Positions 6,290 to 42,917 of a stretch of DNA of 42,917 nucleotides are shown in pieces. Location of the stretch: IMG/VR virus record IMGVR_UViG_3300020596_000043, positions 1-42,917 of that record, one strand, 5' to 3'. Position 1 is the first letter of the stretch. The number at the start of each line of letters is the position of its first letter. Made by a program: the position numbers and the translations under genes. The notes beneath the pieces were generated by a model. The model did not search any database. It saw nothing but the letters and a program-made list of their open reading frames with translations, and was not told the origin of the DNA. The DNA is from a virus.

Positions 6290-6688
6290 ATGATCAAAAA
6301 TGGCTTGAAAAGAATTCGTGGCTGGTGGCTTGTTTTCTTGGCGACGGTGCTGGGCATTGGCGGCATAGTCGTATCGCAAACGGTGACTGACGTTGTGCGC
6401 TGGGCCGCTCCAACCGAGCGCGTTGACGGTACCGCACTCCCCTCCGCGCAACTGCGGGAATATCGGGTGTCGATGGGCACGACTCCGGGCGGCTCGAAAG
6501 CTGTCGTCGCGACTATCCTGCACCCCACGCTGACTGCGACAGTTCCACGTGGATCGAACCCAATTGGCACTCGCTGCTACACGGTCACGGCAGTCGATAT
6601 CAATGGGATGGAATCGGCACCGTCTGGCGAGGTATGCAAGAGCATCAACGCGATCCCGAACGCTCCATCGTCGGTCACTGTTCAGTAA
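6290..6688 (+). CDS. membrane-anchored fibronectin-III-like protein
   Basis: A 132-aa protein with TAGGAG nine bases upstream of ATG. A basic N-terminus precedes a single hydrophobic segment (about 12-30, WWLVFLATVLGIGGIVVSQ) that could be a membrane anchor or uncleaved signal. The rest resembles a fibronectin type III domain ending in the usual CYTVTAVDINGMESAPS strand and loop. Two Cys near the end may pair if exported. It may be exported to the host envelope or be a virion accessory. Confidence 0.6.
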   Translation: MIKNGLKRIRGWWLVFLATVLGIGGIVVSQTVTDVVRWAAPTERVDGTALPSAQLREYRVSMGTTPGGSKAVVATILHPTLTATVPRGSNPIGTRCYTVTAVDINGMESAPSGEVCKSINAIPNAPSSVTVQ

Positions 6689-6704
6689 GCGATAGAGTAA
6701 GCCG

Positions 6705-9002
6705 ATGCCTACGATTGTTTCTGATACGAATGGCGACGCATTCGGCAGCACAACGTGGACCGCGACTTTCACGAGTATCGGCGGCACCGCCCCTGTCAAC
6801 GGCAACAGGGTGGTGCTGCTGTTTATTTCAGAGCAAGCACCTGCCACGGCTACTGTCGGCAGCAACACGCTGACGCAACGCAGGACTCGGGCTGCGGACG
6901 GGACCAACAATCTTTATCTGTATGACACTGAGGCAATAACAGGATCGCCGACAGATTTCACTATCACATTTGCTGTGGCGAGCGACGGGTGGCTGCTGGC
7001 GTTTGAGTTGTCGGACGTGGACGCGACGACGCCGCGTGACGTGCTGTTTGACGGAACGGGAAGCGGCAGCGCGATCTCTACTGCCTTCACCACCACCGTT
7101 GCCAGCGTAACTGTGTTGGGGATGGTGAGGGCTGTTAATAACGGCGGCTTAACATCCGGGTCGGGCTACACCGCTTTGGGGACGGCGGGAAATTGGGAAC
7201 GGTGGATGAGCCGCGCAGACGCGGGCGCGGCAGGGTCGAAGGATTTTGACGCAACGCTTACTAACTCGCCGACTTGGTACACCATCGGCGTAGCGTACCG
7301 CCCTGTTGCAATCACGTCTCTTGCGGTTGGCGATAGCGCGCATCTGCACGCAGCGGACGGCCTAGGGCTGACGCAGGCCGCGTCCCTTGCGGTTGGCAGC
7401 AGCGCACATCCGCATGCATCGGACGGCCCAGCGCTGACGCAGGCTGCGTCCCTTTCGATCGGCAGCAGTGCGCACCTTCACGCATCGGACGGCCCCGCGC
7501 TAACGCAGGCCAACAGCCTCGTCGTCGCAAGTAGCGCGCACCTGCACGCAGCGGACGGCTTAGATCTGACGGCGGGCTCGTCTCTTGCGGTCGACGGCAG
7601 CGCGCACTTGCATGCATCGGACGGCCTAGGGCTGACGCAGGCTGCAACGCTAGCGATCAACAGCAGCGCTCACTTTCATGCGAGCGACAGTGCGAACCTG
7701 ACGCAGGCCGCGTCCCTCGCAATCGGCGATAGTGCGCATCTGCACGCGACGGACGGCCCAGCGCTGACTCAGGCCGCGTCTCTTACGGTCGGCAGCAGCG
7801 CACACCTACACGCATCGGACAACCTAGCGCTGACGGCGGGCGCGTCTCTTACGGTCGGCAGCAGTGCCCACGCGCACGCGACCGATGCGACGCTGCTCGT
7901 TCAGTCCGCCTCGCTGACCGTCCTCGAGTCGGTCCACGCGCACGCGACCGATGCTGTCGTGGTAACGGTAGCGTTCACGCTTACGATCGATGGCTCGGTT
8001 CACGTTCACGTATCAGACCAGCCCGTTGTGTCGCTGGCGCTGTCTCTCGTCGTCGATGAGTCCGCGCATCTGTTCGTGTCGGACGGCGCGGCGCTGACTC
8101 AATCATCCTCGCTCGTCGTCGAAGGATCAGCCCACGCTCACGCAAGCGACGCAGCGGACCTCGCCCAAGCATCTTCGCTGGCCGCGCAAGACTCCGCGCA
8201 CACCCACGCAAGCGATACAGTCGTGCTCGACCAGTCGGCGAACCTTGCGCCGCAGGACTCCGCTCATGCTCACGCGAGCGATGCGCCAGGACTGACGCAG
8301 GCATCGACGCTCACCGTCGACGGTTCAGCCCATCTCAACGCGACCAACTCCGCGAACCTCATTCAAGGTAACGCAGTCAGCCCGGCAGATTCGGTTCATG
8401 TCCAAGTAAGCGACGAACCGAGCCTCACGCAGGCCAGTGCACTGGCTGTTGGCGAGTCGGTCCACGCGCACGCTTCCGAATCGCTTGCGCTTACCGAATC
8501 GGCGGCCCTGGGGATTGGCGAGTCGGTGCACCTGCATTACTCGGATCAGCCCGCAGTCTCGACGGTTCCGTTCTTGTCTGGCCTCGAGTCGGTGCACCTG
8601 CATGTGGCGGATGGGGTTGGCTTGACGCAGGCATCGACACTGGCTGTGGCGGGCTCCGCTCACAGCCACGTATCGAGCAACCCCGCGCTGGGATTCGGCA
8701 TCACTGTGTTTGCCGACGACTCATTCCACGCGCACATCTCGGACTCATTCGAGCTCAGCGCGTCATCAACATTGGCCGTGGGTTCGTCCGCACATTTAAA
8801 CTTCGCCGAAAATACTGTATTATCTCAGGCAAGTTCGTTAGCTGTCGGCGAAAGCGTCCACATCCTGACCAGCTCATTTGTTGCGCTGATTCGTCCGGGG
8901 GAACTCACAGATGGGAATGTTTTCTTTGTCGACAGAAACCCTCGTCTTTATTCCGCGATCAGGACAGACCAGTACAGCGCGGAAAGGAACGGCAGGGACT
9001 AG
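6705..9002 (+). CDS. fibre-like protein with 24 tandem HxH repeats
   Basis: A 765-aa protein. Residues 1-200 form a beta-rich N-domain (it begins MPTIVSDTNGDAFGS and ends at WYTIGVAYRPV). Residues 205-732 are 24 consecutive 22-aa repeats with consensus SLAVGxSAHLHASDGxALTQAA, most with the His-x-His pair. A 33-aa tail ends the protein. In T4 the long tail fibre tip carries HxH motifs that bind iron along the trimer axis; the regular spacing here suggests a similar metal-stabilised rod, which is inference. Repeats 1-9 are the most alike, and the later ones drift to SVH or lose one His. Confidence 0.65.
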   Translation: MPTIVSDTNGDAFGSTTWTATFTSIGGTAPVNGNRVVLLFISEQAPATATVGSNTLTQRRTRAADGTNNLYLYDTEAITGSPTDFTITFAVASDGWLLAFELSDVDATTPRDVLFDGTGSGSAISTAFTTTVASVTVLGMVRAVNNGGLTSGSGYTALGTAGNWERWMSRADAGAAGSKDFDATLTNSPTWYTIGVAYRPVAITSLAVGDSAHLHAADGLGLTQAASLAVGSSAHPHASDGPALTQAASLSIGSSAHLHASDGPALTQANSLVVASSAHLHAADGLDLTAGSSLAVDGSAHLHASDGLGLTQAATLAINSSAHFHASDSANLTQAASLAIGDSAHLHATDGPALTQAASLTVGSSAHLHASDNLALTAGASLTVGSSAHAHATDATLLVQSASLTVLESVHAHATDAVVVTVAFTLTIDGSVHVHVSDQPVVSLALSLVVDESAHLFVSDGAALTQSSSLVVEGSAHAHASDAADLAQASSLAAQDSAHTHASDTVVLDQSANLAPQDSAHAHASDAPGLTQASTLTVDGSAHLNATNSANLIQGNAVSPADSVHVQVSDEPSLTQASALAVGESVHAHASESLALTESAALGIGESVHLHYSDQPAVSTVPFLSGLESVHLHVADGVGLTQASTLAVAGSAHSHVSSNPALGFGITVFADDSFHAHISDSFELSASSTLAVGSSAHLNFAENTVLSQASSLAVGESVHILTSSFVALIRPGELTDGNVFFVDRNPRLYSAIRTDQYSAERNGRD
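7317..8900 (+). repeat. 24 x 66-bp coding repeats (22-aa units)
   Basis: The unit is 66 bp, in frame, and tandem without spacers. SxH recurs at a fixed 22-residue step through the whole block. Copies 1-9 are close at DNA level (sharing the GCGCACCTGCACGC type core), so expansion by unequal recombination is likely. Later copies are diverged. It is not CRISPR, because there are no unique spacers and the repeat is a reading frame. Confidence 0.9.
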
Positions 9003-32644: not shown

Positions 32645-32830
32645 TTAGTTAACGGGTTTCGTTGATTCCTGCGGGAACACCCAGCGCTGTGAGCGTTCGT
32701 CCCAAGACTGATAGATGCCTTGCGCAATCTGCGCTTCAGCCCACGAGTGAAAGGCCAGATAGCCAGCCGGTCGCGGGCAGCCCTTAGGATATTGCTCGAC
32801 CAGACCGGCGATGCGATCGGCTTCGGTCAT
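32645..32830 (-). CDS. small hypothetical protein, last gene of leftward operon
   Basis: A 61-aa protein. The ATG overlaps the upstream gene's stop by ATGA, which fixes this start against a longer frame. It has YPKGCPRPAGYLAFHSWAEAQ and ends WVFPQESTKPVN. Tryptophans (three) and one Cys suggest a small compact fold. No family recognised. It is not a member of the ELRAEW family. Confidence 0.65.
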   Translation of the reverse strand: MTEADRIAGLVEQYPKGCPRPAGYLAFHSWAEAQIAQGIYQSWDERSQRWVFPQESTKPVN

Positions 32831-33039
32831 GGCTGCTTTTCCTTTTCCTTCGCTAGCGCGGAGCGGTACGCCTCCCACGCGGTGCGCTCAGCCTTCTCCG
32901 CCAAACGGGTTGCCGCGTCCATCAACTCCACCTCCGCCGCACGAGCCGCCGCCCGCACCTCCCACTCCGCCTGTCCCGCCGCCACCGTAGCGTTCGCCGC
33001 GTTCCACTCCGACCGCAATACCTCTACCGTCTTGCTCAT
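32827..33039 (-). CDS. ELRAEW-family microprotein (copy y)
   Basis: A 70-aa Ala-rich, almost all-helical protein. It opens MSKTVEVLRSEWNAANATV and closes AWEAYRSALAKEKEKQP, the start and end typical for the family. The middle is a run of A-x-x-A heptads with alternating Glu/Arg. Overlaps at both ends (ATGA) couple it to its neighbours. No signal or membrane segment is present. Function unknown; likely a small protein-protein interactor. Confidence 0.75.
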   Translation of the reverse strand: MSKTVEVLRSEWNAANATVAAGQAEWEVRAAARAAEVELMDAATRLAEKAERTAWEAYRSALAKEKEKQP

Positions 33040-33230
33040 AGCAGCTGTTCCTTTTTCAGTGCGGCTAGGTACGCTTCATGCGCATCCATCTCCGCCGACC
33101 ACGCCAGCGCTGCATCTTCACATGCATCGCGATGCGCAAAGTGACGCCGCGCCGCCAGACTATCCGCCGCCCCCGTTGCCCGCCGCGCCGCACTCCAATC
33201 CGCCCTCAGTTCCTCTACCGTCTTGCTCAC
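33036..33230 (-). CDS. ELRAEW-family microprotein (copy x)
   Basis: A 64-aa protein. GTG start at 33230 (GTGA overlap with the DUF1364 gene). Opening MSKTVEELRADWSAARR and ending AYLAALKKEQLL match the family. The middle has extra His residues (ARRHFAHRDA). Its last codons contain AAAAAGGAACAGC, the Shine-Dalgarno sequence of the next gene. Confidence 0.75.
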   Translation of the reverse strand: MSKTVEELRADWSAARRATGAADSLAARRHFAHRDACEDAALAWSAEMDAHEAYLAALKKEQLL

Positions 33231-33511
33231 TTCAACACCCCCTGTTTGTGCAGCCTGATCAACGTCAACGCACAGTAGTGCAAAAATAGCTCGCTCCACT
33301 CCCAGCGTTTCAGTTTGTCCCGACTGCTGGTGTCCATTTCCAAATGACAGCGTGCACACAAATGCGCGGCAATCAGGTCGTTACCCTTACGGCCCATGCC
33401 GCCGCCATAAGCGTGCCGACGCGGCCCGAAGTAGTGCGCGAGAACGACCGTGCCATCCTGTGCACCGCAAGCGACGCAAGACTGATCGCGGGCAGCATTG
33501 CGCAACTTCAT
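33227..33511 (-). CDS. DUF1364 / YbcO-type HNH-like nuclease
   Basis: A 94-aa protein with the DUF1364 pattern: LRNAARDQSCVACG (zinc Cys), TVVLAHY, GMGRKGNDLIAAHLCARCHLEMD (second Cys pair and the His of the HNH-like core). YbcO of E. coli and its phage relatives are nucleases acting with recombination functions. It overlaps both neighbours, and lies beside the DUF1367 gene, with which it is often found in phage early regions. Confidence 0.82.
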   Translation of the reverse strand: MKLRNAARDQSCVACGAQDGTVVLAHYFGPRRHAYGGGMGRKGNDLIAAHLCARCHLEMDTSSRDKLKRWEWSELFLHYCALTLIRLHKQGVLK

Positions 33512-33936
33512 GCTGCACGCTGGCTGGCATAGACCGCAACCTGGTCGGCCAGCTCATCGACGTTCATATCAAAGAGCAGGTGCGCACATACGGTCATCAT
33601 CGAGGCCATGACCTTGCCGAATTCGATCTCATCTAAAGCGTCATAAGAAAGGCTGGCCGGCAATCGCACAATTTCACCGTCAAGCCCGACAAGCTCGGTG
33701 CTGTGCCCGGCAGCCAGTGCCACAGCTTTGCGGAAATCCTCGAAGTTGCCGTACCGATCCTGATTTTGATAGGTCAGGCCCAGCAGCGCAAAAGCGAGCT
33801 TGTGGTGCTGGTAGTTGCGAGGCTTAACAATGTCGGCCTTGTAAACTTCCCCCAAGCGATACCCGCGCACGGCTTCTGTGCTGGCTTCATCAGCTGGCAC
33901 AAACCCGGTCAACGTGCGCTTGAGATAGACGCGCAT
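33508..33936 (-). CDS. DUF1367 protein
   Basis: A 142-aa protein. The ATG at 33936 overlaps the upstream stop as TGATG. The family's hallmark PRNYQHHKLAFALLGLTYQNQ (usual form PRN-x-x-x-H-x-x-FFALL) is at about 41-60. DUF1367 proteins occur in phage recombination/replication blocks. Biochemistry is not established. The C-terminal acidic helix region is normal. Confidence 0.82.
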   Translation of the reverse strand: MRVYLKRTLTGFVPADEASTEAVRGYRLGEVYKADIVKPRNYQHHKLAFALLGLTYQNQDRYGNFEDFRKAVALAAGHSTELVGLDGEIVRLPASLSYDALDEIEFGKVMASMMTVCAHLLFDMNVDELADQVAVYASQRAA

Positions 33937-34616
33937 CAAAGCACCGCGATGAATCGCTTGTGGATCTCACGCACCCGCATCACGTCAGCCTTGCAGTGTT
34001 CGACGACTTTAAGCGGGTCGCTCGCCCAGGCTTCGGCTACCTGTGAGCCGTCTATATCCTCATTCAGGTCGCCCAGCAATTCGCGGCTTAAATCCTTCAA
34101 CTTCACAAAGCCCTTGTATCCCGCCCACATGCGCATCGTGTCCAGCGATCGGTAGCGTTCCGTTTTGAAATCTACCGCAGCAGCCATGTATCGCGGCAAC
34201 CTAACCCCGTGCCTGACTGCCCGTTGAAACAGAAACTGCAAATCAAAGTTGATGTTGTGACCCACACAGATCAGGTCACCATCTATTGTCCCACTGCGCG
34301 GTAAGCTGGCCTTGACGATGGTTGCGAATGTTTCTTGTATCAATGTCGACTCGCTGCGACCCTCCAGCGGTGGCAGACAGAAAATGTCGCCATCATCAAT
34401 CGCCCAGCCAATGGCGCACACCTCGCCGTAAAGCCCATTCAACGCCAGTTTGGCGTGTTCCTCGTGTGCAGCAGCGGTGGCGTTTTCAGCCATCCACGCT
34501 TTGATGGAGTCCTCCTTTTTGTACTGACCGGGCGGCTTTATGTTCGCCAGGATGCGGTCGAAATGCCCACCGGATTGCGGTGGGAGTGTTTCAATGTCTA
34601 GGTATAAAAATGCCAC
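33936..34616 (-). CDS. DEDD-family 3'-5' exonuclease
   Basis: A 226-aa protein from GTG at 34616 (a longer frame to 34670 would run into the previous gene). Exo I: FLYLDIETLPP. Exo II: GHNINFDLQFLFQRA. Exo III: HCKADVMRVREIHKRF. This is a RNase-H-fold DnaQ/PolB-type exonuclease. The tyrosine typical of DEDDy (Y-x3-D) is a His here, though the spacing to Asp is kept. It likely trims DNA ends in phage replication or recombination. Confidence 0.82.
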   Translation of the reverse strand: MAFLYLDIETLPPQSGGHFDRILANIKPPGQYKKEDSIKAWMAENATAAAHEEHAKLALNGLYGEVCAIGWAIDDGDIFCLPPLEGRSESTLIQETFATIVKASLPRSGTIDGDLICVGHNINFDLQFLFQRAVRHGVRLPRYMAAAVDFKTERYRSLDTMRMWAGYKGFVKLKDLSRELLGDLNEDIDGSQVAEAWASDPLKVVEHCKADVMRVREIHKRFIAVL

Positions 34617-34623
34617 TGGTTTC

Positions 34624-35259
34624 TCAGAATGGAATGTCGTCGTCAAAATCCGCATCGCCGGCTGGTGCAACAGAATTTGCAGTCTTTACCGACTGAGCGC
34701 TCACACGTTCCTGCAGCTTTTCCTTGATCCATTTCGGCAGCTGCTCGAATGTGTCAGCATCAGGATCATCAAGACTGTATAGCAACACGCCCACTTCGGA
34801 TTTCGCCACCGACGCTTTCGCGCGTTGCTCTTTCGACAACCCGATGATGCCGGTAATGTTGGCGTAGGTTTTACCTTCGCCCTCAGTGTGTGTGACCATC
34901 AGCTGGCAGCATTTGCCGGCCACGCTTGAGATATCAAAGCCCTTGAGTTCGTCGGCAGTAAAGGGCTTGCCGCGCCAGTTCTCCAACACCTGTCGCAGCT
35001 TCGCCTTTTCGTGTAGCGATAGCGTGTAGGTCGAGCCAATCGAGCACGGCCCTTCAGTTTCTTTGCCGTCCTTTTCGTAGGTGATCCGTTCGTCCGGCAC
35101 TTCCCAGCGCAAATAAACCTTGTGCTGAGATTTAACCTGGCCCTGGAATTCACTACGCTGCACACCCAAATCAACCACCATATTGCAAATCGCAAAATGG
35201 CAGCCCGGCGGGACTTTCTTGAAGTCCTTACCGCCCGTGTCTGATGCATAAATCGCCAT
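34624..35259 (-). CDS. single-stranded DNA-binding-like protein
   Basis: A 211-aa protein with AAGGAG six bases before ATG. The beta-rich N-half (VPPGCHFAICNMVVDLG, HKVYLRWEVPD, TYTLSLHEKAKLRQVL) fits phage replication/ssDNA-binding proteins. The C-terminus ends ADFDDDIPF, matching the acidic DDDIPF tip by which SSB recruits partners. Co-transcription with exonuclease, DUF1367 and DUF1364 supports a role in recombination. The fold is inferred, but the tip is clear. Confidence 0.7.
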   Translation of the reverse strand: MAIYASDTGGKDFKKVPPGCHFAICNMVVDLGVQRSEFQGQVKSQHKVYLRWEVPDERITYEKDGKETEGPCSIGSTYTLSLHEKAKLRQVLENWRGKPFTADELKGFDISSVAGKCCQLMVTHTEGEGKTYANITGIIGLSKEQRAKASVAKSEVGVLLYSLDDPDADTFEQLPKWIKEKLQERVSAQSVKTANSVAPAGDADFDDDIPF

Positions 35260-35280
35260 GTCATTCTCCTTCGTTACTAG

Positions 35281-35382
35281 TCAAAAATAATCGCGCCCAC
35301 CACGACTGGTCCGCCAATTCGGCACCGGCAGTCGGCCGTTATCGGCAAGCAGTCGTTTAAGCCATTTTCTAAATCGTTTCAT
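35281..35382 (-). CDS. 33-aa basic peptide, ATGA-coupled
   Basis: The ATG (35382) overlaps the upstream stop (TGA at 35379-35381). The product is very basic (MKRFRKWLKRLLADNGRLP, then NWRTSRGGRDYF). It is too short for standard gene calling. Its N-terminus looks like an amphipathic cationic helix, so nucleic-acid or membrane binding is possible. Confidence 0.55.
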   Translation of the reverse strand: MKRFRKWLKRLLADNGRLPVPNWRTSRGGRDYF

Positions 35383-35609
35383 TTCAAGTTTTCCTCAAGT
35401 TTCGTAAGCTGATCTTTAAGAGTCGTCAGGTGTGACCTGGCCGTAAGCAAGTCAGCCTCAAGCCGTCTCACGCGCACACGTTGCGCGATCGCTTCACGGG
35501 CGATCAGCCACACCTGCTCGGCATGGTTCGCGCTTTCATCGACGACATAGTTAGGCTCGGGGGCGTAGTCAACAGTCGCGAAGTCACGCTGGAAATAGTC
35601 GCGGCTCAT
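35379..35609 (-). CDS. coiled-coil protein (76 aa)
   Basis: The N-half is acidic/aromatic (DYFQRDFATVDYAPEPNYVV). The C-half is a clear coiled coil (RRLEADLLTARSHLTTLKDQ and QLTKLEENLK) with Leu at heptad positions. It couples upstream and downstream through ATGA-type overlaps. No family recognised. Confidence 0.7.
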   Translation of the reverse strand: MSRDYFQRDFATVDYAPEPNYVVDESANHAEQVWLIAREAIAQRVRVRRLEADLLTARSHLTTLKDQLTKLEENLK

Positions 35610-35968
35610 CGTGATATCTCAATCGCGCTGAGTGATGCCCACTGCCACTTGATAGGCGAGACACTAATCAGCGGCAGCCGTGAGCTGTGGACGGAGACAG
35701 GGCAACCCATGCGGGCGGCATTTCGCTGCATATCCGCCCGGCGCGCGTAGCCTTCTGACGCGCTGCCGATGATCCGACCGTTGCCCGCCCACAGTCGCCA
35801 GCGCCACTCCTGCCCGTCCTCAGTCGTGTAAAGCTCCCACACTGCAGGCGCGTTCCTGCGTCGAGATCCCAGTTGACTGGGTATTTTCGTGAATATCACC
35901 CAGTGAATAATGTCCCCGTTCAATATTGCGTATCGGGTTATGTGACGCGGTATTTTTTTAGGTTTCAT
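35606..35968 (-). CDS. DUF1508-like protein
   Basis: A 120-aa basic protein. Residues about 45-90 contain VWELYTTEDGQEWRWRLWAG, NGRIIGSASEGYARRADMQR, then NAARMG, the strand-turn-helix pattern of DUF1508 (YegP). That domain is usually duplicated in bacteria; here it is single, with a longer N-terminus. It overlaps both neighbours by ATGA. Confidence 0.72.
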   Translation of the reverse strand: MKPKKIPRHITRYAILNGDIIHWVIFTKIPSQLGSRRRNAPAVWELYTTEDGQEWRWRLWAGNGRIIGSASEGYARRADMQRNAARMGCPVSVHSSRLPLISVSPIKWQWASLSAIEISR

Positions 35969-36075
35969 GATTCGTCCTCGTCACGTTCCAACCACATGCA
36001 ACACAGCGCCATGATCGCGATTGCTCCCAGCAGCAACGCCAGCACAGCCCAGTTCGATTCAATTATCGGCGTCAT
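35965..36075 (-). CDS. 36-aa single-span membrane peptide
   Basis: A short protein with one hydrophobic helix (WAVLALLLGAIAIMALCCMW) between a polar start and the acidic end LERDEDES. ATGA overlaps at both ends support that it is a gene. Similar tiny membrane proteins are common in phage early regions. Possible roles include superinfection exclusion or modulation of host membrane proteins, which is speculation. Confidence 0.6.
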   Translation of the reverse strand: MTPIIESNWAVLALLLGAIAIMALCCMWLERDEDES

Positions 36076-36218
36076 TTGTCGCGCTCCTTTGCGTATAGTG
36101 CGGCTTGACACTCGTTCCACGCTGCGATCTCCGCCTTGACCGCCACCTCCGCTGCCGCCTGTCCCGCCGCGTATGTCGCTTCCAACTCCGCCCGCAATTC
36201 CTCTGTCGTCTTACTCAT
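36072..36218 (-). CDS. ELRAEW-family microprotein (copy o)
   Basis: A 48-aa protein. It opens MSKTTEELRAELEATYAAG and has AAWNECQAALYAKERDK at the end, the shortest version with both family ends except copy l. Ala-rich and helical throughout. ATG at 36218. It overlaps the membrane peptide downstream by ATGA. Confidence 0.7.
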   Translation of the reverse strand: MSKTTEELRAELEATYAAGQAAAEVAVKAEIAAWNECQAALYAKERDK

Positions 36219-36229
36219 GTCCTGGGCTC

Positions 36230-36952
36230 CTACTTCGACAGTCGGCGCTGCAACTGCCGGCGCTCTCGCTCAGCTAGTTCGTCACGGGTCACGTAAGCCG
36301 ACATGTCTGGCACCGGGGCAGCCAGCACGACAGGCGCGACCGGCGTACACGTCGGCAGTACTACGCCCCGTTTTGCGGCTCTCCGGCCCGCCTTGGACAC
36401 GTTCAGCACAGCGCACGCGGCTTGCTGCTCGCCGACCGACGCGAACGCCTGCGCGAGCATAAAATCGTAGCACTGTGCCGACGTAAACCCGACGCCCAAG
36501 AACGCCGCGCCGCCGGCAGACGATCCACCCGCGTTGCCCGCGACGCCGCAACCTTGAATCGCGAATGAGCCCTGGCCGATGGCTGGGGCTTGGCGGATCT
36601 GCCGGTCGCCCTCGATCATAATTTGGTTGTTCGCTACCGCAGCGGAATCCCCGCCGTCCGCATTGCCACCGGCAGCGGAGACTCCTGACACCGAACCGCC
36701 GACACCACCAGCGCCGCCGGTCGCGTTCGCGTTCGAGTTGCCGCCAGCGCCGCCGGTCGCGCTCGAGTTGCTTGCTGCCAGTGCAGCCGCTTCGGCAGCC
36801 GCTTCGGCAGCCGCTTCGGCAGCCGCAGCCGCAACCGACACCGCAGCCGACTGCGAGTTCGCGTGGCTTTTTACGTAGGTGGCAGGGGCAGGGCTGACAG
36901 CAAACGCTGCCAACGGGGCCGACGCCAGTATTGCAAATATAGCTGATTTCAT
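36230..36952 (-). CDS. secreted Ala/Gly-rich protein
   Basis: A 240-aa protein. The ATG at 36952 is the natural start because it opens a signal peptide (MKSAIFAILASAPLAAFA). An Ala-rich region follows (EAAAEAAAEAAA, encoded by 12-bp repeats), then a Gly/Asn-rich low-complexity part (TGGAGG type), a Cys-containing domain (QGCGVAGNAGG, AQCYDFMLAQAF, QAACAVLNVSK) and a Pro-rich stretch. It ends with a basic helix (AERERRQLQRRLSK). An envelope or extracellular role is inferred. Confidence 0.65.
   Translation of the reverse strand: MKSAIFAILASAPLAAFAVSPAPATYVKSHANSQSAAVSVAAAAAEAAAEAAAEAAALAASNSSATGGAGGNSNANATGGAGGVGGSVSGVSAAGGNADGGDSAAVANNQIMIEGDRQIRQAPAIGQGSFAIQGCGVAGNAGGSSAGGAAFLGVGFTSAQCYDFMLAQAFASVGEQQAACAVLNVSKAGRRAAKRGVVLPTCTPVAPVVLAAPVPDMSAYVTRDELAERERRQLQRRLSK
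36783..36830. repeat. 12-bp tandem repeat in the secreted-protein gene
   Basis: Three copies of GCAGCCGCTTCG (36783-36818) plus a partial fourth encode the EAAA repeats on the minus strand. Being a multiple of three they can change length without frameshift, so the helix length may vary among related phages. Confidence 0.85.
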
Positions 36953-36963
36953 GTTTGTGCTCC

Positions 36964-37146
36964 TTAAACCCGGATCGTCAGCGGGCACAGCTTCACCACG
37001 TTGATCGTGATCGTGTACTCGTCGCCGAGATAGTCGTATACGCACTGCTTGGTCATGCCCGTCTCGCGCTCGTACTGGAGGAAGGCCGTGCCTGCGTAGG
37101 CTGTGCCTGCGGCCAGTGTCATCGCGATCAACAGAATCGTCTTCAT
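36964..37146 (-). CDS. small secreted protein (60 aa)
   Basis: The ATG at 37146 has GAGG eight bases upstream. A short cleavable signal (MKTILLIAMTLAAGTAYAG) precedes a 40-aa mature domain with two Cys (KQCVYDYLG and KLCPLTIRV) likely forming a disulfide. I associate this pattern (K-Q-C-x-Y-D ... CPL-x-I) with small phage periplasmic proteins. It is paired with the larger secreted Ala/Gly protein immediately after. Confidence 0.7.
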   Translation of the reverse strand: MKTILLIAMTLAAGTAYAGTAFLQYERETGMTKQCVYDYLGDEYTITINVVKLCPLTIRV

Positions 37147-37168
37147 CGTGTTTCCCTCGTTGTGTGAT

Positions 37169-37288
37169 TCAATCATTTACCTGATCCGCCGTCTGGACCG
37201 TCGCGTCGTGCATAGCGTTCCACGCTTTGTTGACCACCGCGCACGCCGCGAGCCACTCCGCCCGCAGTTCGTTGGATGCCGTGGTCAT
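37169..37288 (-). CDS. ELRAEW-family microprotein (copy l, shortest)
   Basis: A 39-aa protein. It opens MTTASNELRAEWLAACAVVN and has AWNAMHDATV, then ends without the KKEQQS tail. It appears truncated at the C-terminus relative to its relatives, consistent with the next gene having its own strong ribosome-binding site. ATGA overlap with the upstream gene. Confidence 0.6.
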   Translation of the reverse strand: MTTASNELRAEWLAACAVVNKAWNAMHDATVQTADQVND

Positions 37289-37449
37289 TTGCCGCACGCC
37301 CTGAGCGCTTCGTGGGCGTCCAGCTTCTCGGCTTCAAGCAGGGCATCGCGAAAGCACTGCACCATATTTTCACCCATTGCCTCACCCATCGTTTTGTTAA
37401 GCACGAGTACTAAATAATCCTCAATCACTGTAAGTCTGTTTTCACTCAT
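37285..37449 (-). CDS. small helical protein (54 aa)
   Basis: Overlaps both neighbours (ATGA). It is not of the ELRAEW type: it starts MSENRLTVIEDYLVLVLNKT and has MGEAMGENMVQCFRDALLEA. It is met by its frame, coupling and acidic helical composition. Possibly a remnant or an independent small gene. Confidence 0.6.
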   Translation of the reverse strand: MSENRLTVIEDYLVLVLNKTMGEAMGENMVQCFRDALLEAEKLDAHEALRACGK

Positions 37450-37646
37450 GGCTGCTGTTCCTTTTTCAGTGCGGCCTGCACCTGCTCGTTTTCAGCGCGC
37501 AGAGCTTCTTGGACCGTCTGATGATCGACCGAGCCGGTCAGCAGCCAGCGCATCATCGTGGGCACATCCCACTCCGCCTGTCTCGCCACCACCGTAGCGT
37601 TCGCCGCGAGCCACTCCGCCCGCAATTCCTCTACCGCCTTGCTCAT
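37446..37646 (-). CDS. ELRAEW-family microprotein (copy j)
   Basis: A 66-aa protein. It opens MSKAVEELRAEWLAANATV, then has a unique middle (TMMRWLLTGSVDHQTVQ), and ends QAALKKEQQP. The start and end match copies g, h, x and y closely, while the middle differs. The pattern fits domain-level shuffling between conserved ends. Confidence 0.72.
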   Translation of the reverse strand: MSKAVEELRAEWLAANATVVARQAEWDVPTMMRWLLTGSVDHQTVQEALRAENEQVQAALKKEQQP

Positions 37647-37882
37647 GACTGCTGCTCCCTCGTCAATGCGCTGCTGAAACAGTGCGGGCAGATATACCCG
37701 GCGCGGCTGCGAATCAGCATGCCCGTTTCGTGGTAGTCACTCGCCAGCTCGCTGCAGTCAGTCTCGCTGGGTGTTGTCGTCGTGCGCTCGCAATCCGCGC
37801 ACCTGTAAATAGGTGGCAGCAACTCGCCAAGCCGTCGCTGCAGGCCGATCAGGTTGGCGATCAATTCAGCCTTGGTTGTCAC
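37643..37882 (-). CDS. zinc-ribbon protein with family-type tail
   Basis: A 79-aa protein from GTG at 37882 (GTGA overlap). Zinc-ribbon Cys pairs: YRCADCERT (about 31-34) and YICPHCFSS (about 68-71). Its start (MTTKAELIANLIG) and the ending REQQS share the family's ends, although the body is different. It suggests that the coupling tail is retained by unrelated genes of the operon. Confidence 0.68.
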   Translation of the reverse strand: MTTKAELIANLIGLQRRLGELLPPIYRCADCERTTTTPSETDCSELASDYHETGMLIRSRAGYICPHCFSSALTREQQS

Positions 37883-38055
37883 GACTGCCGTTCCTTTAGC
37901 TGTGCGTCCAGGTACGCGTCCCAAGCCACGTTCTCCGCCTTCACCGCCGCGTCCCTCGCATCTCCCCAAGAAAGGTGCTTGGCCTTCACCGCCGCCGTCA
38001 GCGCGTTATCCGCCGCGTCCCACTCCGCCCTCAATTCCTCTTTCGTCTTGCTCAT
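37879..38055 (-). CDS. ELRAEW-family microprotein (copy h)
   Basis: A 58-aa protein. It opens MSKTKEELRAEWDAADNALT, has AAVKAENVAWDAYLDAQ and ends LKERQS. It is the closest to the family consensus. AAAGGAACGG in its last codons is the ribosome-binding site for the following gene. Confidence 0.75.
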   Translation of the reverse strand: MSKTKEELRAEWDAADNALTAAVKAKHLSWGDARDAAVKAENVAWDAYLDAQLKERQS

Positions 38056-38258
38056 GACTGCTGTTCCTTTTTCAGAGCGGCTTGGTACGCCGCCCACGCA
38101 GCATTCGCCGCATTCTCGGCCGCCATTGCCGTATTGTGCGCCGCAGACTCGGCCGCCAATGCCGTATCGCACGCACGATCTGCCACGTCCCACTCATCCC
38201 GCAGTGCATTGACCGAGGCTTCCCATTCGGCGTGCAGCTCTTCCGGTGTCTTGGTCAT
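38052..38258 (-). CDS. ELRAEW-family microprotein (copy g)
   Basis: A 68-aa protein with MTKTPEELHAEWEASVNALR at the start, a run of Ala-rich heptads in the middle (AAESAAHNTAMAAENAANAA) and AAYQAALKKEQQS at the end. The middle looks internally duplicated. Coupled at both ends by ATGA. Confidence 0.75.
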   Translation of the reverse strand: MTKTPEELHAEWEASVNALRDEWDVADRACDTALAAESAAHNTAMAAENAANAAWAAYQAALKKEQQS

Positions 38259-38473
38259 GACTGCCGTTCCTTTAGCTGTGCGTCCACGTAATTTGCCATT
38301 GCCTCATCCGCCGCCTGCCAGACCGCGTCGTGCGCCACGCGCGCTTCGCGCAATTCGATATCCGCCGCCTTAACTTTTAGTCCCGCCTCTTTAACCCTTA
38401 CTGCCGCCGCCACTAACAACGATGCCGCCGCATCCCATTTCGCCCTCAATACAGCCACCGTGTTCGTTGTCAC
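38255..38473 (-). CDS. ELRAEW-family microprotein (copy f, diverged)
   Basis: A 72-aa protein from GTG at 38473. LRAKWDAAASLLV corresponds to the family's ELRAEWDAA. The middle is rich in Val/Ala/Lys (VKEAGLKVKAADIE) and the end YVDAQLKERQS is the same as in copy h. Coupled by GTGA to the gene before it. Confidence 0.7.
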   Translation of the reverse strand: MTTNTVAVLRAKWDAAASLLVAAAVRVKEAGLKVKAADIELREARVAHDAVWQAADEAMANYVDAQLKERQS

Positions 38474-38676
38474 GTTGACACCGCCGTCAAAATTTCGTAC
38501 CTGCGCCAGGCTGCATACGCAGCGTCGCGGGCTATGGCGGCCTCGGCTTGGGCTTTAGTCACTACCGCATCAGCTGCTGTTACCGCCTCAGTGGCTTCTC
38601 GCCACGCTTTAGCAGCCGATGCCGCCTCTTTAGCAGCCATTGCGGCCCGCAGCTTGTCGATGGCTTTTGTGTTCAT
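38470..38676 (-). CDS. Ala-rich helical microprotein (copy e, distant)
   Basis: A 68-aa protein. KLRAAMAAKEAASAAKAWRE corresponds loosely to the family start. The body is Ala-rich helix (TEAVTAADAVVTKAQAEA, AAWRRYEI). The tail is lost (LTAVST). ATGA-coupled. Relation to the family is likely but not certain. Confidence 0.62.
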   Translation of the reverse strand: MNTKAIDKLRAAMAAKEAASAAKAWREATEAVTAADAVVTKAQAEAAIARDAAYAAWRRYEILTAVST

Positions 38677-38993
38677 GACTGCGCCGCCTTCGCTGCCTGC
38701 TTTGCCAGCTCCAGCTGTGCCAGTCGCGCTTTCCATTTTGCATCCCGCTCTAGCCAATCCTCGCGAGCCTGCGCATCCCGTGCGTTTCTTTTTTCCTCAT
38801 ACGCTACCCGCAGTTCTTTGGCTGTCTTTGCCGCGCTTGACGCACACTCCGCAGCCCAGGATGGCCCGAACCATTCTACGATTTGCTGCACTTCGACAGG
38901 AGACGCGCCCCTGCCCTGTGCCCGCATGCGCGTCAGCATGATGGCGTAGTCGGTCGCCGCTGCGCGTTCGAGTTCAGTCGTGTTCGTGGTCAT
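38673..38993 (-). CDS. small helical protein (106 aa)
   Basis: The longest of the array. An N-terminal unique part (ATDYAIMLTRMRAQGRGASP, IVEWFGPSWA) is followed by a charged Ala-rich helix (KTAKELRVAYEEKRNARDAQ, AREDWLERDAKWKARLAQLE). KELRVAYEE may derive from the ELRAEW element, which would place the family motif mid-protein. ATGA overlaps at both ends. Confidence 0.62.
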   Translation of the reverse strand: MTTNTTELERAAATDYAIMLTRMRAQGRGASPVEVQQIVEWFGPSWAAECASSAAKTAKELRVAYEEKRNARDAQAREDWLERDAKWKARLAQLELAKQAAKAAQS

Positions 38994-39211
38994 TTCGCAC
39001 CCGCGTCAATGAGAGCCTGAGCTTCTTCCAGTTCCGACAAAACGTCCTCAGCGAAGTCCTGCGCCAGTATCATTTCCCACGCTCGTTCTTCTTGTTCAAT
39101 CTGGTCAGGATGATTGTTCTTAGTCATATGCTTGCTGACCGCGACAGCCGCATATGCCTCCAGCTGAGCGTTGAACAGGTTCTTTTTCGCATTTTCTATT
39201 TCGGTGTTCAT
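38990..39211 (-). CDS. small acidic helical protein (73 aa)
   Basis: It starts MNTEIENAKKNLFNAQLEAY and has QEERAWEMILAQDFAEDVLS, then EELEEAQ-like helix at the end. Helical and acidic, no Cys. ATGA overlap on both sides. It resembles the array members in size and composition only. Confidence 0.62.
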   Translation of the reverse strand: MNTEIENAKKNLFNAQLEAYAAVAVSKHMTKNNHPDQIEQEERAWEMILAQDFAEDVLSELEEAQALIDAGAK

Positions 39212-39420
39212 GACTGCACCTTCTCGGCCTTGTACTTGCGCCCGACGTTCTCCGCGTGGTCGGCGGCTTTATCCAGCGCGCGGCGCGCAGCCTTTACAGC
39301 GGCCTGCGCTGCTGTGAGCGTGGCCAACGCCTGCTCTAGCGATATCAGCGCCGTCGCCAGATCTTGCTTTGTCCCGCTCTGGTAGTCGGAGGGGATCTGG
39401 TCGGTCGTGTTCGCGATCAT
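39208..39420 (-). CDS. small helical protein (70 aa)
   Basis: A Ser/Thr-rich start (MIANTTDQIPSDYQSGTKQD), then an Ala-rich helix (LISLEQALATLTAAQAAVKA, ARRALDKAADHAENV) and end AEKVQS. The tail VQS is the same as that of the gene upstream (EVQS) and echoes the family's QS ending. ATGA-coupled. Confidence 0.64.
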   Translation of the reverse strand: MIANTTDQIPSDYQSGTKQDLATALISLEQALATLTAAQAAVKAARRALDKAADHAENVGRKYKAEKVQS

Positions 39421-39587
39421 GACTGCACCTCGCTATCGCTTGCGTCGGCTTTATACGCGCGCCAGTACGCGCGCGACGCCATCCCTTCCAAGCTTGCGCG
39501 GAATTCCTTCCGGTACGCCACCAGCGCGGCCTTGCGCGCTGCTTTTGCGGCCTGCGGCTGGTCGATGGTCTTTGTGTTCGTGTTCAT
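39417..39587 (-). CDS. small basic protein (56 aa), first gene of the array
   Basis: The ATG at 39587 has GAAGG about twelve bases upstream. Basic and Ala-rich (QPQAAKAARKAALVAYRKEF), with SLEGMASRAYWRAYKADASD, ending EVQS. It lies about 30 bases after the predicted -10 box and so is the first translated gene from that promoter. Confidence 0.66.
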   Translation of the reverse strand: MNTNTKTIDQPQAAKAARKAALVAYRKEFRASLEGMASRAYWRAYKADASDSEVQS

Positions 39588-39620
39588 TTCGTTCTGCCTT
39601 CTGTTGTGTGATTCGATGTA

Positions 39621-39651
39621 GCTATATTAACAGCTTGTTGCCTGCTGTCAA
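39621..39651 (-). promoter_or_regulatory. leftward sigma70 promoter of the microprotein operon
   Basis: On the minus strand, a consensus TTGACA lies at 39651-39646. The -10 is TAATAT (39629-39624, 16-bp spacer) or TATAGC (39626-39621, 19-bp spacer). Transcription would start about 25-30 bases before the array's first ATG. It overlaps nothing and lies four bases below the methyltransferase stop. No obvious operator. Confidence 0.7.
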
Positions 39652-39654
39652 GCA

Positions 39655-40812
39655 TTACTTGTGCAAAAGTTCATCCACAACTGCTATCCGCTCGCCAATC
39701 CATCGCATAACTGGGACCGCCATACTGTTACCCAGCGCCTTGTAACGCGGGCCGTCCTTCGCGAGCTTGCGGCGATACGGCAGCCGAGTGTGGTCGTCAG
39801 GAAAGCCCTGCAAGCGCTCGCACTCGCGAGGCGTGAGTCGGCGCACGGATGTCGCTCCGACCACCGCCTGGGAATGCCCGTCCGTATCGAGCGGCCCGGC
39901 TAGGTTGCCATACTGGACCACGGAGCTTTGCCGCGCGTCGAAACAGTGGGCCGGCGCAGGGATCAGCGTCTCCGACTCCGCGTCGATCCTGCCCATGCCG
40001 CCGGCGTTCAGACAGCGCGACACAACGGGGATCAGATAGCCCTGATCTGCGTCTTGCAAACTGTTACCAGGCACAGCGTGACCGCCAGCGGAATTCAGGC
40101 ACCCCGCTATAATCGGAATTCCTCGCCCGGTCCCGTCTTCGCTGGCGTCGAACCCTTCCGCCCGCAGCGCGTGCGTGACTACTCGCTGCACTTCGCCGTT
40201 GCCGCGACCGCGGTCAGGGCGTCCAGCAGGGCTGGCGGCAGATCCTTCCCGCGTTTCGCGGCTCGGCGCAGGATGCCCGCGCAGGCTCTCGGACTCAAAA
40301 AGTACCGCGGCGGCACTGGCCCATCCTCTAGCACTTCCGACAACGAACACACGCTTCCGTCGCTGGGCCAGTCCGAAATATTGAGCGTCAAGAACCCGGT
40401 AGGCCCACCCATACCCGAGCTCTGCCAATCCACCGACGAAGCTTCCAAAAGCGCCTGTTCGGTCCGATAGCACGCCGGGGACGTTCTCCCACACCAGCCA
40501 GTCGGGGCGGTAGCGTTCAGCAATTTCAAGGTAGGTAAGGGTGAGGTTTCCCCGCGGGTCAGCAAGTCCGCCGCGAAGGCCCTCGACGCTGAAAGATTGG
40601 CAGGGGGTTCCTCCCACAAGAACATCGATATCTGCATCAGGCCACTCCTTAAATTTTGTCATGTCACCGTGATTCGGCACGCCCGGGTAGTGATGAGCGA
40701 GCGCGGCGCAAGGGTAAGGCTCGATCTCGCTGAAAAACGCGGGCTTCCAGCCCAGCTCGTGCCATGCCGCGCTCGCCGATTCGATCCCACTGCACACGCT
40801 ACCGTAAATCAT
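39655..40812 (-). CDS. C5-cytosine DNA methyltransferase
   Basis: A 385-aa protein with the motifs of C5-MTases in order: I YGSVCSGIESASAAW, IV GGTPCQSFSVEGLRGG (catalytic Cys), VI WENVPG, VIII QRRKRVFVVG, and IX-X SVRRLTPRECERLQGFP through ALGNSMAVPVMRWIG. The variable target domain between VIII and IX is about 150 residues and Gly/Ser-rich. It methylates phage DNA, likely protecting it from host restriction. No cognate restriction enzyme is seen, so it is solitary. A second frame overlaps it at 40179-40637. Confidence 0.92.
   Translation of the reverse strand: MIYGSVCSGIESASAAWHELGWKPAFFSEIEPYPCAALAHHYPGVPNHGDMTKFKEWPDADIDVLVGGTPCQSFSVEGLRGGLADPRGNLTLTYLEIAERYRPDWLVWENVPGVLSDRTGAFGSFVGGLAELGYGWAYRVLDAQYFGLAQRRKRVFVVGSARGWASAAAVLFESESLRGHPAPSRETREGSAASPAGRPDRGRGNGEVQRVVTHALRAEGFDASEDGTGRGIPIIAGCLNSAGGHAVPGNSLQDADQGYLIPVVSRCLNAGGMGRIDAESETLIPAPAHCFDARQSSVVQYGNLAGPLDTDGHSQAVVGATSVRRLTPRECERLQGFPDDHTRLPYRRKLAKDGPRYKALGNSMAVPVMRWIGERIAVVDELLHK
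40179..40637 (-). CDS. overprinted ORF inside the methyltransferase gene
   Basis: A 152-aa reading frame shifted by +1 against the methyltransferase. The ATG at 40637 has AAGGAG (40650-40645) exactly seven bases upstream, the same codons that give Lys-Glu in the host frame. The product has natural composition (SMFLWEEPPANLSASRAFAA, PTGWCGRTSPAC, SVCSLSEVLEDGPVPPRYFL, ACAGILRRAAKRGKDLP). I associate this pattern with ORFs found inside phage Dcm-like genes, which may mean either a true overprinted gene or a conserved shadow. Not assigned to a function. Confidence 0.5.
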   Translation of the reverse strand: MQISMFLWEEPPANLSASRAFAADLLTRGETSPLPTLKLLNATAPTGWCGRTSPACYRTEQALLEASSVDWQSSGMGGPTGFLTLNISDWPSDGSVCSLSEVLEDGPVPPRYFLSPRACAGILRRAAKRGKDLPPALLDALTAVAATAKCSE

Positions 40813-42040: not shown

Positions 42041-42564
42041 ATATGAAAAAGCCACATAGCGTAACGATGCAAGACATTCGAACAGCTGCTTTAGAGGCGT
42101 TGATTCAAAGTCACGATGGTCAGATTGGGCCGCAAATATTGCTTGATTCTGCACGGTGCGGAAGCAGCCCATTTCACGGTGATTTCGAGTGGGATGATGG
42201 AGATGCGGCTGAGCTTTACCGGCTCGTGCAGGCCGGGCACATCATTCGCAGATGGAAAGGCGTGATCGTCAAGATTGAACCGAGCACAAAAATAATCAAA
42301 GTCTCGGCAACGCGATCAGTGCAAAGCCCACAAAGCGGTCGCGGCAACGGTCCGAGTTACAAGCGGGTCAGCGACATCATGGCTGATCCCGTTTTGCGGG
42401 CCGACATGCTGCAAACCGTTCTGCGAGAACTGCTGTCTTATCGCAAAAGGTACTCGGGGCTCTCTGAGCTTGCTGATATTTGGGCGGCGGCTGATGAGGC
42501 TGTCGATCGATATTTGATAGAAAAAAAGAAGCGGGATTCTGACGATCAGCAGCCTTCGGCCTAA
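42037..42564 (+). CDS. hypothetical phage protein with HGDFEWDD-type motif
   Basis: A 175-aa protein coupled to the previous gene by ATGA. SSPFHGDFEWDDGDAAELYR, LVQAGHIIRRWKGV (about 44-75) matches a recurrent motif of phage proteins (H-x-x-FEWDD ... A-x-x-YR-x-x-QA-x-x-LI). The C-terminal half is helical, with a leucine-rich region. Function unknown. Co-expression with the RAMP-like gene suggests they act together. It ends at the pentamer tract. Confidence 0.6.
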   Translation: MNMKKPHSVTMQDIRTAALEALIQSHDGQIGPQILLDSARCGSSPFHGDFEWDDGDAAELYRLVQAGHIIRRWKGVIVKIEPSTKIIKVSATRSVQSPQSGRGNGPSYKRVSDIMADPVLRADMLQTVLRELLSYRKRYSGLSELADIWAAADEAVDRYLIEKKKRDSDDQQPSA

Positions 42565-42917
42565 AAGCTCGGCTGGGCTTGGCGGGCTAGGTCTGGCCGG
42601 GTATGGCAAGGCCAGGCCTGGCACGGCAAGGCTCGGCAGGGCTTGGTGAGGTAAGGCGGGGCAGGCGCGGCATGGCTTGGCGAGGCTGGGCGTGGCTCGG
42701 CGAGGCGAGGCACGGCATGGCAGGCGGGGTTCGGCAAGGCCGGGCGAGGCGCGGCAAGGCATGGCAGGCAGGGTTCGGCAAGGCGTGGCGAGGCGCGGCC
42801 TGGCTTGGCAAGGCATGGCAGGCGAGGTGCGGCATGGCCGGGCAAGGCGCGGCCTGGCTTGGCAAGGCATGGCAGGCGAGGTGCGGCATGGCTGGGCAAG
42901 GCGCGGCCTGGCTTGGC
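42565..42917. repeat. GGC-pentamer tandem repeat tract, left part
   Basis: From the stop of the previous gene to the end the + strand is almost entirely GGCNN pentamers (GGCTT, GGCAA, GGCAT, GGCGA and so on). The first 220 bases are irregular and the last 130 are the regular 54-bp units. It continues at position 1 on the circle. There is no gene in it. ORFs read from the opposite strand are Pro/Cys/His-rich repeats only (PCLAKPG type). Confidence 0.9.
42791..42917. repeat. 127-bp terminal redundancy (copy 2)
   Basis: Identical to bases 1-127. See the entry at the start of the window: it indicates a closed circle in assembly. Confidence 0.9.

Follow-up and report, generated by a model that had tools for sequence, protein, structure and literature searches.

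A probable exchange zone of translationally coupled microgenes, bounded by conserved coding sequences, in the early region of a viral genome

A 42,917-nt viral record (IMGVR_UViG_3300020596_000043, analyzed over its full length and referred to here as the window) carries, within an early region of nin-like type, an array of ATGA-coupled microgenes that appears to be expandable. We consider that the array probably constitutes an exchange zone whose conserved boundary sequences serve at the same time as coupling junctions. It has this appearance because breaks in homology between phages fall within short shared blocks at the gene ends, and because the same blocks occur on unrelated genes.

The array and its genomic setting

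Genes for a terminase, a portal protein and a tape measure protein were detected in the 42.9-kb record. The array shares a minus-strand, early-type block with genes for an SSB-like protein (34624), an exonuclease (33936), a NinB/Orf homologous recombination mediator (DUF1367, 33508..33936; phrog_319 with an E value of 6e-28, PF07105) and a YbcO-like HNH nuclease (33227..33511; PF07102, phrog_131; DUF1364 in an initial annotation of this DNA), in agreement with the early-type setting that the annotation had described. Such a neighborhood resembles the nin region of lambdoid phages. A promoter-like site (TTGACA-16-TAATAT with an extended -10, TG; 39624..39651, minus strand) directly precedes the first microgene; it is a consensus match only, at 10 of 12 positions, and sigma-70-like sites across the region are no more numerous than in shuffled sequence. 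The leader motif GAATCACACAAC, read directly from the sequence, lies at 39603..39614 (minus strand), and a copy is found at 37170-37159, past the truncated member at 37169 and ahead of a 60-aa gene at 36964. The Dcm-type methyltransferase gene at 39655-40812 contains a nested 152-aa ORF (40179-40637, same strand, other frame), which is intact in contigs L008 and L010.

All of the microgenes listed in the initial annotation were recovered on the minus strand, and eight are paralogs at the DNA level: members of 70 aa (32827..33039), 64 aa (33036..33230, ending ALKKEQLL), 48 aa (36072..36218), 39 aa (37169..37288, truncated), 66 aa (37446..37646), 58 aa (37879..38055, ending QLKERQS), 68 aa (38052..38258, ending ALKKEQQS) and 72 aa (38255..38473, with a GTG start and ending QLKERQS). 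The common start and end ascribed to the seven clearest members hold for most of them, but 33036 starts with GTG, and 37169 consists of the 5′ half only, its 3′ end running into the leader copy. Among three candidates described as more diverged, 38255 is a true member, with 94% DNA identity to 37879 over its last 36 nt, whereas 38470 and 38673 gave no match to the family profile. The former (38470..38676, 68 aa, Ala-rich) instead shares a different 5′ block with a 56-aa gene ending ..VQS (39417..39587, minus strand; 86% over 35 nt); the latter (38673..38993, 106 aa) has a partial DNA match in contig 3300020219_000484. Two further minus-strand genes stand between them and 39417, namely a 73-aa ATGA-coupled gene not detected as a member (38990..39211) and a 70-aa Ala-rich gene ending ..KVQS (39208..39420), with a 77% DNA match in the same contig.

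Two nonmembers are interleaved with the family on the minus strand: a coupled 54-aa gene (37285..37449), which starts from the Shine-Dalgarno (SD) sequence in the 3′ block of 37446, and an unrelated Cys-rich 79-aa protein (37643..37882), which ends in the family 3′ block (TREQQS, AGGGAGCAGCAGTCATGA). The members are less scattered than the tens of genes given in the initial annotation, with eight genes between 33036 and 36072 and two between 36072 and 37169. The 240-aa Ala/Gly-rich protein encoded at 36230..36952 (minus strand) has a signal-peptide-like start; its gene contains a 12-bp tandem repeat (3.7 copies at 36783-36826) and is common to other phage types at 86-97% identity, with more distant versions in several larger viral contigs.

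Conserved ends and variable cores

A full-length member consists of a 5′ block ([STN]KTxEELRAEW), a core of variable length and a 3′ block (AWxAYxAALKKEQ). In an alignment that includes members from other phages, the core ranges from 0 to ∼40 residues, and a 36-aa member in contig L149 is nearly the N-block and C-block alone. All-versus-all DNA comparison of the eight core members gave 20 of 28 pairs at E<1e-3 and 14 of 28 at E<1e-6. Across 40 codon-shuffled sets the mean was 0.25 pairs at the first threshold and 0 at the second; this loss of matches indicates that the similarity of the family is not a chance product of Ala-rich composition, and the claim that the shared ends exceed what is expected of Ala-rich helices is upheld. 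The contrast between fixed ends and varying middles was also correctly perceived: in 32827 and 37446, the first 85 nt are 90.6% identical and the last 20 nt 95% (E 3e-30), and between these near-identical ends the middles are unrelated.

This last pair bears on another account of the array, in which a single coiled-coil gene was duplicated in tandem and drifted in the ordinary way, its helix ends tolerating less change. Some neighboring copies are indeed similar, helical proteins vary in length, and short tandem repeats occur in the cores. We nevertheless regard this account as improbable in view of near-identical ends around unrelated cores within one phage, the occurrence elsewhere of one core under different 5′ blocks (P1273/S13505), and the blocks on unrelated genes described below.

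Translation signal and protein constraint in the two blocks

The DNA of the 3′ block (e.g., CTGAAAAAGGAACAGCAGTCATGA) puts AAGGA ahead of the start of the next ATGA-coupled gene, at a distance of 5 to 10 nt in most members. The terminal Lys-Glu codons are AAG-GAA or AAG-GAG in 17 of 17 family 3′ ends, while Lys before Glu is encoded by AAG in 8 of 16 cases in the other genes of the phage (Fisher P 9e-4). Judged from codon choice and placement, the 3′ block encodes a Shine-Dalgarno sequence positioned for the next coupled gene. SD-like sequences are commonplace ahead of phage genes; here, the service of the 3′ block as ribosome-binding site of the next gene is one reason why the 3′ end is fixed, and one that the initial annotation had missed. 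The same kind of junction is formed where the block ends the unrelated Cys-rich gene at 37643.

The 5′ block presents a different picture. Across 23 sequences, pN was well below pS at K3, T4, E7 and L8; from this low nonsynonymous change it follows that the protein itself probably matters in the N-block, and on these substitution patterns the 5′ block is partly constrained at the protein level. Ortholog pairs gave pN/pS values of 0.2 to 0.7, with one pair at 1.3, and most core comparisons showed no excess of amino-acid change.

Relatives of the array and breaks in their homology

The family is present in three kinds of phage contig, with members at differing sites and in differing order, namely near-identical contigs with the same array, the podophage-like contigs L092, L009, L095 and L149 (a working name for short contigs known from sequence alone) and L151 (3300020219_000484), all carriers being metagenome contigs. 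Together with the DNA paralogy, these altered sites and orders support the earlier suggestion that copies have duplicated and moved. The array is identical in three near-identical contigs; hence, at that scale it is not rearranged rapidly, and turnover is visible only between somewhat more distant relatives. The podophage-like contigs and L151 have other recent DNA in common with the window (87-93% for the 240-aa gene, 86% for the Dcm methyltransferase), and individual cores recur: that of 32827 (ELMDAAT.LAEKAE) in L092 (8989-9192) and L187 (14402-14611), and that of 33036 (RATxAADSLAA) in L092 (8320-8493).

Among isolate phages, no relative of the array was found by megablast or distant blastn, and tblastn with whole and minimal members gave nothing useful, low-complexity filtering limiting its sensitivity. 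Scanning 85,000 prokaryote genomes with one short peptide pattern, again at limited sensitivity, yielded no confirmed relative, and among open-licence papers none was found that described the motif or arrays of this kind. A looser 5′-block pattern returned mainly chance matches and was set aside.

Homology between phages ends at the blocks far more often than random block placement produces. Of 31 HSP ends, 18 lie inside blocks in both phages (mean 0.1 and maximum 3 in 2000 random trials), a count inflated by short HSPs, as two homologous microgenes necessarily cease to match close to the gene ends. Long flanking HSPs are free of this inflation. Contigs L092 and L149 have flanks that are 97% identical, and between two 5′ blocks L149 has an extra 1265 bp, absent from L092, in which the 240-aa gene and additional microgene units are found. 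On L092, the two stretches homologous to L149 overlap by 37 nt, and this overlap falls within a 5′ block. Comparison of L092 with L009, also 97% identical, shows that the array between the metallophosphatase and the MKLIVG.. gene has been replaced, the left break falling 31 nt into a 5′ block and the match resuming at the end of the last gene. On the 3′ side of the 240-aa gene, five contigs have a 5′ block followed by DNA that differs between them. Thus, gene borders carry a short conserved sequence, unrelated genes are joined at one boundary in different phages (the 240-aa gene in five contigs), and breakpoints between close relatives fall at the boundary (L092/L149 and L092/L009). From these homology ends in metagenome contigs we infer that crossovers have occurred in the array.

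The blocks also occur on genes that are unrelated to the family. In L092, the MSKTVE 5′ start is fused to a DPPY methyltransferase (339-869), and a Dcm methyltransferase carries an in-frame microgene tail that ends at 2639; the Dcm enzyme of the window ends VDELLHK, whereas that of L092 runs on as VDELRAEW, the join lying at GTGGATGAACT. A protein with the sequence LWGGADYSLPP.. is found with and without the 3′ block. L092 is a single contig, and assemblies can be misjoined at short repeats; other junctions, however, are found again in L009, L095 and L149, which come from different samples. These fusions point the same way as the homology breaks and would agree with exchange at the blocks.

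Fixed ends with variable middles bear a superficial likeness to programmed diversification by a reverse transcriptase (diversity-generating retroelement, DGR) or by a shufflon-like site-specific recombinase. However, the cores differ in length and by whole blocks rather than by point changes relative to a template, and RVT_1 (PF00078), Resolvase (PF00239) and Phage_integrase (PF00589) had no match in six carrier records, which are possibly incomplete, while positive controls were detected. We therefore rejected both mechanisms as highly improbable.

A second class of microgenes

A scan with the C-block alone identified a second class (class B; MTKLEELKAA...AYxAELKKTQEENSND) in other viral contigs. 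Its 5′ block occurs in 54 stretches (∼54 viral contigs), with up to five exact matches each, and the SD core is in place at 47 of 56 junction starts, as compared with 15% at random positions. Class B resembles the window family in its fixed ends, Ala-rich variable core, ATGA coupling and SD in the 3′ end, and its blocks, too, are found on unrelated genes; it differs in belonging to other phages and in its AT-richer codons, and its 5′ block has neither T4 nor W12, so the two classes do not share an identical block. Profile similarity to the window family exceeded 12 bits for 17 of 51 sequences, against 0 of 1020 shuffles, which do not preserve helix periodicity, and 0 of 51 reversed sequences, which do. 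By these scores the classes are related beyond composition, and common descent and convergence are both possible. Matches by blastn of class B to Sashavirus 536P12 and Vibrio phage MZH0603 were Ala-repeat matches in other genes only and were discarded. The two classes named here are unannotated, and neither was found among the isolate phages searched, within the limits that low-complexity filtering sets to such searches.

The minimal class B gene encodes 20 aa, and some class B cores are frameshifted. L191 reads its 3′ block in another frame (..YYRIKLN), and the SD is intact. Six contigs (L198, L199, L234, L236, L244 and L246) have the same frameshifted core, in which the Ala-rich helix gives way to a Leu/Met-rich, membrane-like tail (AARLLMLLGMLLMMLT). 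In L230 (99-335), MTKLEELKAA stands on an apparent membrane protein (..LPTAVPAIISYFVAAQ..IIFKKKG).

A model for exchange at coupling junctions

Short conserved boundary sequences have been conceived as recombination points between phage gene modules (PMC3029335). In the model that we propose, the junction unit would consist of the 3′ end of one gene with AAGGA(A/G), followed by the start codon and ∼12 codons of the next gene. Such junctions may serve as short homology arms (∼12-40 nt) in homologous recombination by the phage or the host, possibly assisted by the neighboring NinB/Orf. Units could then be lost, exchanged, relocated or fused without uncoupling translation of the operon.

Two known systems offer comparison. 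The boundary-sequence concept has been applied to the nin-type region of lambdoid phages, which likewise has short shared border sequences that enclose different genes, ATGA-coupled early genes, and NinB/Orf and YbcO neighbors. The boundaries described here differ in being coding (the 5′ block a selected N terminus, the 3′ block a C terminus plus SD) and in that one boundary recurs many times per genome and across phages; it is these coding, repeated, cross-phage boundaries that are new. In tandem paralog arrays, or gene accordions, copy number changes by recombination between repeats. The present array resembles them in this respect, but only the ends are repeated here, and what lies between them is exchanged for other sequence and does not simply increase in copy number.

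The question of how phage genomes join their modules is an old one, and the sequences at which modules meet can rarely be recognized. In this array the boundary can be seen; it is coding, occurs repeatedly and is common to different phages, and its use is therefore directly testable. The conserved C termini of small phage proteins also gain a plain explanation, in that they encode the ribosome-binding site of the next gene. It is possible, and we propose it only tentatively, that this class of microgene in several kinds of phage combines three roles, those of a protein, of a ribosome-binding junction and of a landing site for recombination; such a portable, self-coupling adapter would dock new genes into early operons and shuffle short helical effectors.

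Predicted products of the microgenes

AlphaFold2 modeled the product of 32827 as one continuous helix (pLDDT 97), and its large hydrophobic residues follow a period of 3.6 residues more strongly than shuffles do. The products are thus predicted to be single Ala-rich amphipathic helices, which likely form coiled coils. Searches of PHROG, Pfam, PADLOC (whose models are for defence, not anti-defence) and PDB identified no clear relative of the family; weak matches to Alanine_zipper, DUF5703 and DpdD, in one member each, were treated as composition.

The initial annotation found a diversifying set of host-takeover or anti-defence microproteins an attractive reading. In such a set of effectors, the N-block would bind a common partner, the cores would vary by host target and protein-level selection would keep both ends. 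The early-type setting, the very small size of the proteins, the purifying selection at N-block residues, the replacement of the array between 97%-identical phages and its spread among different phages with common recent DNA would all fit. None of the four databases provided an informative match in its favor, however, and most core comparisons lack an excess of amino-acid change; moreover, conservation of the 3′ end stems at least partly from the SD, the 3′ block sits on unrelated proteins, and in class B it can be out of frame (L191). We rate this reading as conceivable, short of an even chance.

The opposite extreme is neutral or selfish filler: repeats equipped with a start, an SD and a stop would multiply by recombination with little protein function, maintaining translation of the operon and helping to fill the head. 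Weak constraint on the cores, truncated and fused copies, minimal genes of 36 aa and 20 aa and the frameshifted class B cores are what such filler would leave. Yet pN lies below pS at the N-block, pN/pS is 0.2 to 0.7 in most ortholog pairs, reading frames are open in more than 20 copies and amphipathic periodicity is retained, and we therefore hold filler to be unlikely. Under the exchange-zone model, the microgenes probably encode real proteins that are under weak constraint and present a conserved N-terminal surface (K-T-x-x-E-L). A more speculative step, to which we would give somewhat less than even weight, is that these are early accessory proteins with rapid turnover that bind partners from the host or the phage.

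Other features of the window

A 132-aa gene in the structural region (6307-6689) has 86% identity to DNA of contig 3300020219_000484, in which there is no TerL_ATPase match. A 765-aa protein (6705-9002) contains many ∼22-residue repeats (SLAVGSSAHLHASDGPALTQA). Repetitive minus-strand ORFs at the end of the window (42561-42899; CQARPRLARPCRTSPAMP) suggest a short tandem repeat.
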